47,544 nt of DNA from positions 1 through 47,544 of the forward strand of contig VGZZ01000016.1 in the NCBI GenBank assembly GCA_016872285.1. The letters run 5' to 3'. Shown here piece after piece: positions 1,099 through 9,150 of this stretch (positions are counted from its first letter, which is position 1; each line of letters starts with the position of its first letter). Made by a program: the position numbers and the translations under genes. Source of the DNA: SAR202 cluster bacterium. GTDB taxonomy: Bacteria; Chloroflexota; Dehalococcoidia; Lucifugimonadales; GCA-2712585. The notes under the pieces are model-generated. The model had not been told where the DNA came from. It made no database searches and worked only from the letters and a program-made list of their open reading frames with translations.

Positions 1099-2235
1099 AT
1101 GAAAGAAGTCATCCAAGAAGCCGCGCGGCTCCTGGAGCAGGGCCAGCCCTGCGTCCTCGCCACCGTCGTCCGCACCCGGGGCTCCACCCCCCAGAAGCCC
1201 GGCGCCAAGCTCGTCGTCCGCGCCGACGGCACCGCCCTCGGCACCCTAGGCGGCGGCTGCGTCGAGGGCGATATCTGGTTCGCCGCCTCGGAGATGCTCA
1301 AGCGTCACGAAGGCCCCCAGTTCAAGGACTACTATCTGAACGAGGACATCGCCGCCCGCGACGGCCTGGTCTGCGGCGGCACCATGTACTTCTTCCTCGA
1401 CCCCCTCAACCCCGACGACTTCCTCCCCTACGCCCGCGACATCCTCCACGCCTACGATGGCGGCCCCGTCTGTGGCGCCGCCACCATCGTCAAGGCTAAC
1501 GACCCCTCCCTCATGGGCAAACGCCTCCTCCTCCGCGACGACGGCCCCGCCCACGGCTCCCTCGGCTCCCCCACCCTCGACCGCCAGGCCATCGACGCCA
1601 TCCGCCAGGTCGCCGACCTGGGCAACAACACCTACCTCGTCGCCGACAACGGTACCGAGCTTTTCATCGAAGGCTTCACCACGCCGCCCACCCTGGTCAT
1701 CATGGGCGGCGGCCACGTCGGCAAGGCCATGTATCACGCCGCCCTCCCCCTGGGCTTCCGCATCTATGTCGTCGACGACCGCCCCGACTTCGCCAGCAAG
1801 GAGCGATTCCCCGACGCCGCCGGCGCCGTCCTCGCCCCCTTCGAAAAAGGCCTCGACCAAATCCCCATCAACGCCAACACCTACATCGTTGTCGCCACTC
1901 GAGGCCACCGACAGGACGACCTGGCACTAGAGGCTGCCGTCCAGACTCCTGCCACCTACGTGGGCCTCATGGGCAGCAAGCGCAAGACCCTCCTCATCTA
2001 CAAGCACCTCCTCAAGAAGGGCTACTCACCTGAAGTTCTGCGAAAGGTCAAAGCCCCCGTCGGTCTGGACATCGGCGCCCTCACCCCCGAAGAAATCACC
2101 GTCAGCGTCCTCGCCGAAATCATCATGGTCCGACGAGGCGGCAAAGGCGGCCCCATGCAAATGGCCCGCAAATATTTCGACAAAGCCATGGAACAGTCCC
2201 GCGCCAAAGAACCCGCCGCCACCCCCTCTGACTAG
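1099..2235 (+). CDS. xdhC: XdhC/CoxI family molybdoenzyme maturation protein
   Basis: A 378-aa protein with the two-domain XdhC layout. The N-terminal XdhC/CoxI domain carries RTRGSTPQKPGAKLVV (about residues 25-40) and GTLGGGCVEGDIW (48-60). The C-terminal Rossmann domain begins at LVIMGGGHVGKAMYHAAL with GGGHVG at 203-208, and ATRGHRQDD and GLMGSKRK follow. Family members bind molybdenum cofactor, promote its sulfuration and insert it into xanthine dehydrogenase or CO dehydrogenase-type hydroxylases. The next gene is a MobA/MocA-like nucleotidyltransferase, so the two probably serve the same molybdoenzyme, which is not in this window. Coding sequence is extremely C-rich, which creates long false antisense frames. 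Confidence 0.9.
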   Translation: MKEVIQEAARLLEQGQPCVLATVVRTRGSTPQKPGAKLVVRADGTALGTLGGGCVEGDIWFAASEMLKRHEGPQFKDYYLNEDIAARDGLVCGGTMYFFLDPLNPDDFLPYARDILHAYDGGPVCGAATIVKANDPSLMGKRLLLRDDGPAHGSLGSPTLDRQAIDAIRQVADLGNNTYLVADNGTELFIEGFTTPPTLVIMGGGHVGKAMYHAALPLGFRIYVVDDRPDFASKERFPDAAGAVLAPFEKGLDQIPINANTYIVVATRGHRQDDLALEAAVQTPATYVGLMGSKRKTLLIYKHLLKKGYSPEVLRKVKAPVGLDIGALTPEEITVSVLAEIIMVRRGGKGGPMQMARKYFDKAMEQSRAKEPAATPSD

Positions 2236-2361: not shown

Positions 2362-2976
2362 GTGTCCTCCCCTAAACCTAAACCTCTCCTCCGCACCGCC
2401 GCCCTCCTCCTCGCCGCCGGCGAGTCCACCCGCATGGGCCGGCTCAAAGCCCTCCTCCCCTGGAAAAACTCCACCCTCCTCCAGGCCCAGCTATCCTCCC
2501 TCCACGACGCCGCCCTCTCCCCCATCATCCTCGTCCTCGGCCACCGCGCCGCCGACCTCCAGCCCCTCGCCAAACCCTTCCCCGCTGTCCGAATCGTCCA
2601 CAACCCCCACTACAAACAAGGCAAGACCACCAGCATAAAAGCCGGCCTCGCGGCCCTCAACGACGGTGAAACCGACGCCATCCTAATCCTCAACGTAGAC
2701 CAGCCCCGCTCCCCCGCCACCCTCCAGCGAATCGTGGAAGCCCACCACCGCTCCCGCGCCGCCATCACCATCCCCACCTACAAAAGCAAAGGCGGCCACC
2801 CCGTCATCTATAACATCAGCCTCCTGCCCAAACTCCTCGCTATCTCAGAAGACACCCAGGGCCTCAAAGCCCTCACCCACAACAGCCCCCACCCCATCCT
2901 TCGCTTCGACGCCGCCACCCCGGAAGTCATCTTGGATCTTAATACTGAGGAAGACTACCAGCGCGCCATTGATTGA
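2362..2976 (+). CDS. MobA/MocA-like molybdopterin nucleotidyltransferase
   Basis: A 204-aa NTP-transferase of the MobA/MocA fold. The signature AALLLAAGESTRMGRLKALL (residues 13-32) is the nucleotide-binding loop with its GxxxRMGxxK pattern. ILILNVDQPR in the middle gives the metal-binding Asp after a beta strand, and GGHPVIY is the conserved second-substrate segment. Such enzymes add CMP or GMP to molybdopterin; next to xdhC a MocA-type CTP transferase for a xanthine dehydrogenase-family enzyme is the best guess. Translation starts at GTG 2362, with GAAGG about 10 nt upstream. A repeat separates it from xdhC, so co-transcription is likely but not certain. Confidence 0.8.
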   Translation: MSSPKPKPLLRTAALLLAAGESTRMGRLKALLPWKNSTLLQAQLSSLHDAALSPIILVLGHRAADLQPLAKPFPAVRIVHNPHYKQGKTTSIKAGLAALNDGETDAILILNVDQPRSPATLQRIVEAHHRSRAAITIPTYKSKGGHPVIYNISLLPKLLAISEDTQGLKALTHNSPHPILRFDAATPEVILDLNTEEDYQRAID

Positions 2977-3127: not shown

Positions 3128-3160
3128 AAAAAACCAGGCCCAGCGTCCGCCGGGCCTGGG
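3128..3160 (-). terminator. Rho-independent terminator
   Basis: Perfect 8-bp stem CCAGGCCC/GGGCCTGG (3134-3141 with 3152-3159), 10-nt loop. On the minus strand the stem is followed directly by TTTTTT. On the plus strand only a short TTTT after a 5-nt gap follows, so minus-strand termination is favoured, though it may also end the mobA-like transcript. Confidence 0.75.
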
Positions 3161-3450
3161 CTAGGTTTTCCTCACCATCGGCCCCACATACCTGGCCTCT
3201 AGGGCCAGAGGAGCCTCCCGATGCAATCGGGATTACTTGGCTATATCCTCAAGTTAGCGTGGAGCCTTCAGGCTTTCTGATGCCCCGCTGGCTCTCCTTC
3301 ACAAACCTCTGCTCAGCGACTCAACCCTTCAAAACCAGCGAGGCGTCTACAAGGGAAGTGCCACTGATGGTTCCATACGTGGCGCCTTACCATCTTCGCC
3401 TCCTTTCGCTGTATTTGAGGGTTATGACTATCTTTTACTCATACCTATTT
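3129..3450 (-). ncRNA. Candidate structured RNA or small-leader transcript of unknown class
   Basis: Read on the minus strand this 613-nt gap holds an AT-rich start region (3430-3490), several short perfect hairpins and a strong terminator. Visible stems include GCCAC/GTGGC (3360-3384), AGCCT/AGGCT near 3263-3276, CTGGCC/GGCCAG (3192-3208), CCCGAT/ATCGGG (3217-3231) and the terminator stem at 3134-3159 followed by TTTTTT. I could not match it to tmRNA, RNase P, 6S, SRP RNA, a T-box or any riboswitch I know. A weak promoter (TTGCCT, 17 nt, CAAAAT) is possible near 3440-3475. No gene lies downstream on this strand before the 3' end of the mobA-like gene. It could instead be a degraded remnant with repeats in it. 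Confidence 0.35.
3313..3393 (-). CDS. Possible 26-aa small ORF with a strong ribosome-binding site
   Basis: ATG at 3393-3391 is preceded by AAAGGAGG (3406-3399) at a 5-nt spacing, close to ideal. The frame encodes 26 residues, MVRRHVWNHQWHFPCRRLAG followed by FEGLSR, rich in His, Trp and Arg, and stops at 3313. It lies inside the candidate structured RNA and upstream of its terminator, an arrangement that resembles a leader peptide, but no regulated gene follows. Function is unknown and chance occurrence is possible. Confidence 0.3.
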   Translation of the reverse strand: MVRRHVWNHQWHFPCRRLAGFEGLSR

Positions 3451-3589
3451 TGATAAAGAATTGTTAAAAAGGCAATAGTTGCAAATCGTATGTTCCGTTT
3501 CGTAATTCGTACTCTCGCCGTCCCCCTGCGTCAATTTCCGACTCCTGTGATACCATGGTTCCGCCTCACCACCACCCTGGAGGAATCCC

Positions 3590-8245: not shown

Positions 8246-9150
8246 AGCCGTCTTAGTTTAACCCATCATTTCGACTGTATCATCATGCCTTTTAACGCCA
8301 AGAAATCTCCATCAATGACTGGTCTCATATTTTGTGGAGGCGAGACCATCTCGCCATTAGCCCCTAACGCCTGACGCTAGTTGAGTTGGCGCCTACAAAA
8401 AGGAGGCGTGTTTGTCATTCTGAGCCTGCGAAGAATCTAATCGACGTGCCCGTTGCCTCGCCCCTCATGTCACTAACAAGGCTACTATTGTCATTCCGAG
8501 CGTAGTCGAGGAATCTGTTATGACGGTAACCTCGTTTCTCATATCACTGACACGCCCCGCATCTTCTCGTTTCCATTGTCGTCAGCGTCTCACACTAGTA
8601 ACAGCCATCTGTTGGAGCAGGTCTACCGTAACCTTATCTCCTGCCTCACCCATAGAAGAGACCTCCCCTCTCCGACTCTCCTCCCATACCTACCTCTTCT
8701 TCCGATGTGACAACTTCTTGTAGCCTTAAGCCTTCTCCTTCTGCTATCCTCTCTATCCCTCCAGCCCATCTCTCCATCGCCCCATCTTCATGAAAGGCCA
8801 TTGAAAAGATAACAACCGGGACAACCTCTAAAACAATTCTGTATCTAGTCCACGCCTGAAACCCTGAATTGTTTCCCCTAAAAACTTTTTACAAATATCC
8901 TCAGGGCGAAAAACCAAACAAGGCTCCACCTCATTCGTTTCCTCAAAACTAAAATTTTAGTGGGGTCTAAAAGAAAATCCATCGCCGTCCGAAATCCCGA
9001 TGGGATCGGGAGGGAGGCTCATCCGCCTCAGGAGGATCGGCCCTCCCCGCCCCAGCATTAGTTCCTTCCCCACAAAAACTAATCCCCCGCCATTGCCCGC
9101 CACTATTCCTTCCCCTATCATTGCCCCAACCCACCCATAAGGAACCTAAA
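8246..9150. other. Intergenic stretch of ~900 nt with repeats and an AT-rich block
   Basis: Two GTCATTC-type repeats (8413-8448 and 8489-8518), an AT-rich block (about 8800-8960) containing the palindrome ACTAAAATTTTAGT (8948-8961), and a hairpin ATCCCGATGGGATCGGGA around 8992-9009. No convincing gene: the only frames are under 75 codons without ribosome-binding sites. Confidence 0.65.
8413..8448 (+). repeat. GTCATTCTGAG...GAAGAATCT dispersed repeat
   Basis: Nearly identical to 5809-5844: TGTCATTCTGAGCC then GCGAAGAATCTAATCGACGT. A diverged third copy (TGTCATTCCGAG, GAGGAATCTGTTA) follows at 8489-8518. Confidence 0.8.

Follow-up and report, generated by a model that had tools for sequence, protein, structure and literature searches.

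SgrS/SgrT, RNAIII/hld and SR1/SR1P are dual-function small RNAs (sRNAs), autonomous transcripts in which a promoter, a small open reading frame (sORF), a structured part and an intrinsic terminator come together. Short reading frames also accompany RNA structure in tmRNA (RF00023) and in TnaC, RAPP-type arrest peptides and antibiotic-sensing upstream ORFs, where a short ORF with a strong Shine–Dalgarno (SD) sequence carries an aromatic/proline motif at a fixed register and is followed directly by a helix. Intergenic conserved sORFs whose position does not suit regulation of a main ORF are likewise found among the sORF/uORF candidate motifs of comparative RNA discovery, in the available passages of PMC11109978. 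Elements of each recur in the RNA analyzed here, which is encoded on the minus strand of a 47,544-nucleotide stretch of DNA from a SAR202 cluster bacterium (the window) and almost certainly represents a real, conserved family of stand-alone RNA genes and not a chance arrangement. Unlike tmRNA, it has an SD and a start codon of its own for initiating translation; unlike the three dual-function sRNAs, it is conserved across a whole class and has its sORF interlocked with the main helix, one strand of which is coding; and whereas known arrest leaders regulate a downstream gene in cis, here no such gene is conserved and the arrest is putative. We know of no leader-peptide arrest element that matches its W-x-F-P motif and fixed spacing to the helix P1.

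A preliminary description of the window had proposed an unexplained structured transcript on the minus strand, and positions 3128-3475 of that strand do hold an ideal SD (5 nt upstream of the ATG at 3393) and an ORF of 26 codons, together with several stems and a strong terminator (Table 1). The minus-strand fold reaches -132 kcal/mol, compared with -109.6 ± 4.8 kcal/mol for dinucleotide shuffles (z = -4.7; equaled in 0 of 100), and its helices covary in homologues. The terminator is as strong as first thought and does end in TTTTTT, but the 8 bp originally given to its stem were too few, a terminator scanner finding 11 pairs. No gene follows on the same strand, again as had been noted, the next genes (MobA-like NTP transferase and XdhC) lying on the plus strand. 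The element is present as a single copy in the host genome. At the window edge (300-1024), a Phd/YefM antitoxin gene is followed by one for a PIN-domain protein, a VapBC-like toxin–antitoxin pair.

Table 1. The sORF-bearing RNA element and its neighbors, in window coordinates
Feature	Position	Strand	Basis or remark
Putative promoter: TTGCCT (3470-3475), 17 nt, CAAAAT (3447-3452)	3447-3475	-	weak, 8/12 by eye
Shine–Dalgarno sequence AAAGGAGG	3399-3406	-	also in homologues, which were partly chosen for an SD
Small ORF MVRRHVWNHQWHFPCRRLAGFEGLSR*	3313-3393	-	pN/pS 0.40 in frame; W11, F/Y13 and P14 conserved
W-H-F-P codons (family core W-x-[FY]-P)	3352-3363	-	homologue alignment
P1 5' strand GCCTCGCTGG, within the ORF, 7 nt past the Pro codon	3335-3344	-	covariation
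P1 3' strand CCAGCGGGGC	3282-3291	-	two-sided changes in 10/11 P1 pairs; 90% of cells paired
P2 5' strand GGCTCCAC (3259-3266) and outer GCC (3271-3273)	3259-3273	-	inner part by covariation; outer part by eye
P3 5' side	3239-3250	-	covariation
P3 apical hairpin ATCCCGATTGCATCGGGA, letters of the dispersed palindrome	3216-3233	-	covariation; hairpins of relatives
P3 3' side	3209-3215	-	covariation
P4 hairpin CTGGCCCTAGAGGCCAG	3192-3208	-	94.7% of cells paired; double changes in 6/7 pairs
P2 3' strand GTGGGGCC (3180-3187) and outer GG	3175-3187	-	inner part by covariation; outer part by eye
Intrinsic terminator CCAGGCCCGGCGGACGCTGGGCCTGG TTTTTT	3128-3159	-	scanner; strict terminators enriched in homologues
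MobA-like NTP transferase, convergent neighbor outside the element	2362-2976	+	lies beyond the terminator
XdhC gene	1099-2235	+	neighbor beyond the MobA-like gene

Searches against known families agreed with the earlier impression that the element fits no known class. Neither the window locus nor 20 homologous loci matched any Rfam family at gathering or permissive thresholds, a result consistent with no known class, and Pfam and NCBIfam likewise gave no match. A tmRNA was rejected, with no RF00023 match at the locus and the host's own tmRNA situated elsewhere (G000:C53:6977-7331, 161 bits). No match to 6S RNA (RF00013) and no closing rod were found, which is weak evidence because Rfam's 6S model finds nothing in most control genomes either. 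The available passages of PMC11109978 do not describe the present RNA: its main text makes no mention of Dehalogenimonas or Chloroflexi, and the single Dehalococcoides motif recovered from it by text search is an rdhA leader.

The sequence and stems, whose absence from relatives would have spoken against the preliminary description, are kept among homologues. When 98 relatives were searched by blastn, one match was strong (75% over 167 nt, E 2e-21) and ran from the 3' part of P1 to the terminator, and two weak ones of 72 and 54 nt spanned the ORF alone, so that the ORF is conserved apart from the structure. A peptide-based search then yielded fifteen loci sharing this layout. We also scanned one genome per species across 84,980 bacterial species with a DNA pattern comprising the SD, the start and [NYFI]H-x-W-x-[FY]-P; all 30 matches were in Chloroflexota, many of them titled Dehalococcoidia or SAR202, where about one chance match was expected (an estimate from base frequencies). 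Profile and pattern searches placed the RNA in other orders of the class Dehalococcoidia as well, including one family of mostly complete genomes in which it occurred in 8/8 genomes of a 1.7-2.1 Mb genus and 3/3 of a 1.4-1.5 Mb genus; by inference, these genera apparently correspond to Dehalogenimonas and Dehalococcoides. Phylum-wide pattern matches outside the class look like chance, because they had either no sORF start codon or no P1, and viral contigs yielded no match. A covariance-model search over the class, in which few candidates were scored per genome, under-detects the family. The RNA gene is thus a previously uncatalogued one found class-wide in Dehalococcoidia, apparently including cultured, pollutant-degrading organohalide respirers.

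The covariation check that had been suggested for homologous loci showed that P1 to P4 covary strongly. In an alignment of 49 sequences to a covariance model derived from 11, which leans to that model, pairing holds in 88.7% of cells, changes on both sides occur in 31 of 33 pairs and 260 double-change cells are seen versus 77 expected (0/500 shuffles); the signal was abolished when partners were shifted by 1-3 columns. A plain MAFFT alignment gave a weaker result in the same direction (81.5% paired; 30 double-change cells versus 13.8), and the P4 hairpin is visible there too. Strands cut from the covariance-model alignment paired better within their own sequence than between sequences, both for P1 (-19.1 versus -12.4 kcal/mol) and for P2 (-14.0 versus -10.3 kcal/mol), with 0/2000 permutations doing as well in either case. 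Together, these comparisons indicate that helices P1-P4 form. A further pairing suggested by RNAalifold, in which CTTCC/GGAAG would join the WHFP codons to the P1-P2 linker, had no covariation by eye and was dropped. The 5' region has an extra fold in 23 of 39 sequences (z below -1), several of them with a clear 5' hairpin.

To assess selection on the peptide, we compared 38 aligned sORFs over codons 2-14, where pN/pS, calculated from sequence pairs that are not independent, was 0.40 in frame but 1.39 and 1.44 in the two alternative frames; across the 30 nt upstream of the sORF it was 0.8-1.0. In the core W-x-[FY]-P, P14 is invariant, W11 is present in 37 of 38 (once R) and position 13 is F or Y, an invariance partly set by selection of the sequences, because the homologue search demanded much of this motif. 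All four CCN codons are used for the conserved proline, and tryptophan is codon 11 in 38 of 46 sORFs, while the N-terminal half varies between clades. Programmed frameshifting at TTY-CCN was considered and rejected, since no slippery sequence is conserved and conservation is at the amino-acid level. In two members (L008 and L107) the ORF ends one codon past the proline, so whatever follows W-x-F-P is dispensable at the protein level. Possible non-ATG starts were also seen, the L100 ORF seemingly beginning at ATT and a candidate Dehalococcoides ORF (L158) at TTG. The substitution pattern argues that the sORF encodes a conserved peptide of ~25 residues that is translated and under protein-level selection. 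A short ORF under such selection with a motif at a fixed position is what characterizes leader and arrest peptides, and an autonomous unit with a translated sORF, as judged by sequence comparison, is what characterizes dual-function sRNAs.

We also examined the surroundings of the homologues. A sigma-70 promoter scoring at least 9/12 lay shortly upstream in 71% of them, compared with 7% of mononucleotide shuffles, and the window's own promoter, although weak, falls within the region where homologues carry it. Strict intrinsic terminators were found downstream in 24/45 homologues but in only 1/45 shuffled regions. These signals point to an autonomous transcription unit with its own promoter and terminator; with the conservation, the covariation and the codon-level selection, they bear out the original proposal that this is a structured RNA standing alone and carrying a small ORF. 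The cis-regulated downstream gene typical of leader peptides was not found among the homologues; the genes that lie past them, usually in convergent orientation, represent over a dozen unrelated families, several of the neighbor ORF calls being mechanical and maybe spurious in this GC-rich DNA. Past the terminator lie MobA in part of SAR202, a SAM hydroxide adenosyltransferase in the two Dehalococcoidaceae-like genera and, elsewhere, MFS, NAPRTase, GTP cyclohydrolase, MTHFR-type, aminotransferase, DUF4395, M50, LemA, HAD, PHP and other genes. A link to the MobA and XdhC neighbors was rejected, as this convergent synteny is confined to part of SAR202 and the candidate Dehalococcoidales have the SAM hydroxide adenosyltransferase in that place.

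The sORF and P1 stand in a nearly constant relation. P1 is a helix of 10-14 bp whose 5' strand is sORF coding sequence; it begins 7-8 nt past the proline codon in 36 of 46 members, and the stop codon lies inside the P1 loop in 41 of 46, within a homologue list filtered for P1, a filter that would let through just 4% of shuffled downstream regions. A distance of 7-8 nt from the A-site codon is where a downstream helix meets the ribosome's mRNA entry channel. We propose that a promoter of its own would yield an RNA of ~300 nt with a 5' region, a strong SD and a ~25-codon sORF, followed by P1, a three-way domain of P2/P3/P4 and the terminator. With the proline codon in the A site, P1 would start at the opening of the ribosome's mRNA channel, and this helix and a nascent chain ending in W-x-F would together make a programmed pause, for which geometry and conservation leave us evenly divided between belief and doubt. 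Ribosomes passing the block would open P1 and terminate in its loop, so that the ribosome would gate how the RNA folds, how accessible it is or how stable it is; the RNA would itself be the output, working in trans or as an RNP bound to the ribosome. The reading as a whole, a stand-alone translated structured RNA whose sORF sets a ribosome at W-x-F-P against P1, we regard as having an even chance of being right. A more tentative idea, and one that we think somewhat doubtful, is that the RNA represents a new type of regulator: an arrest leader lacking any cis target, whose micro-ORF serves to lodge a ribosome on its own helix, with either the ribosome-RNA complex or the gated RNA acting in trans.

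Several loci depart from the common layout. In a SAR202 subgroup (L066, L067, L075, L076 and L094), the P2-P4 region is reduced while the sORF, P1 and terminator are kept, and since L066, L067 and L075 have lost most of P2-P4, this domain is dispensable there. Two tandem copies ~410 nt apart occur at L112 (1501-1668 and 1912-2102, in a contig region shared with L092); the upstream copy (1501-1668) has no in-frame sORF start and retains P1, P2 and P4, so either P1 may act without a ribosome, in which case the RNA may not need one, or this copy is decaying. A 3.97 Mb Dehalococcoidia chromosome (OY282456.1, L080) also has two tandem copies, both with a W-H-F-P sORF, and OY282494.1 has two copies (L071 and L095).

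These variants bear on the alternatives to a ribosome set against P1. If the RNA were instead a dual-function sRNA, a working micropeptide joined to a largely independent base-pairing or protein-binding sRNA without any pause, then the protein-level selection on the sORF, the autonomous promoter and terminator and the structure kept by the L112 copy without an sORF would all be expected. We nevertheless consider this unlikely, as only W-x-F-P and its register are fixed while N-terminal residues differ among clades, the constant distance from W-x-F-P to P1 is unneeded for an independent peptide and the peptide can stop one residue past the proline. Less probable again is a micropeptide mRNA, in which the peptide is the sole product and P1 to P4 stabilize the mRNA or tune translation: the codon selection and the SAR202 subgroup with little of P2-P4 agree with it, as does the finding that SD and P1 5' strand pair slightly better when both come from one sequence than when they come from different ones (-12.5 versus -11.5 kcal/mol, p = 0.003), a weak hint that this strand can also mask the SD, for part of which relatedness could account. 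Against it are the strong covariation of P2-P4 in most members and the very paralogue that has the structure without the sORF.

A classical attenuator, in which stalling would replace P1 (1:2) and P2 (3:4) by a 2:3 antiterminator, so that transcription runs on into a downstream gene, has the required leader peptide, two successive hairpins and a terminator. Moreover, P2 by eye appears extended and directly followed by a U-rich run in L087, L098 and L104, where the three-way domain may be the terminator hairpin itself. With no consistent gene downstream, we hold an attenuator to be very improbable. When ALTERNATIVES was tested, the trp-type 2:3 pairing was -7.6 within versus -7.4 kcal/mol between sequences (p = 0.28), and a 1:4 alternative was not supported either. 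Finally, the preliminary description had recognized one stem (CCCGAT/ATCGGG, 3217-3231) as part of the dispersed repeats, correctly, given that it belongs to a palindrome with two sites in the window versus 0.03 expected and 14 in the genome. Its further suggestion that part of the element may be repeat-derived did not hold: relatives form the same apical hairpin with different letters (CCCGTTGACACGGG, CCCACGAGTGGG), so the element is not repeat-derived. Hairpins of repeat or mobile-element origin beside a chance ORF, which the match of that one stem would favor, are accordingly given virtually no credence, in view of the single genome copy, the lack of any viral-contig match, the clade-restricted distribution and the covariation. 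As for the palindrome CCCGATNNNATCGGG itself (3217-3231 and 8996-9010 in the window), its loops vary among the genome sites, a reversed control pattern has 0 sites, and the relative G082 carries a 20-mer with this palindrome in it at least five times.

Members of the class live in marine, soil and groundwater habitats, and a conserved structured RNA gene there had escaped cataloguing. In it, a conserved micropeptide is coupled to an RNA helix at ribosome-footprint distance with no gene to control, and the family lets one ask whether arrest-type sORFs can be parts of free-standing RNAs.
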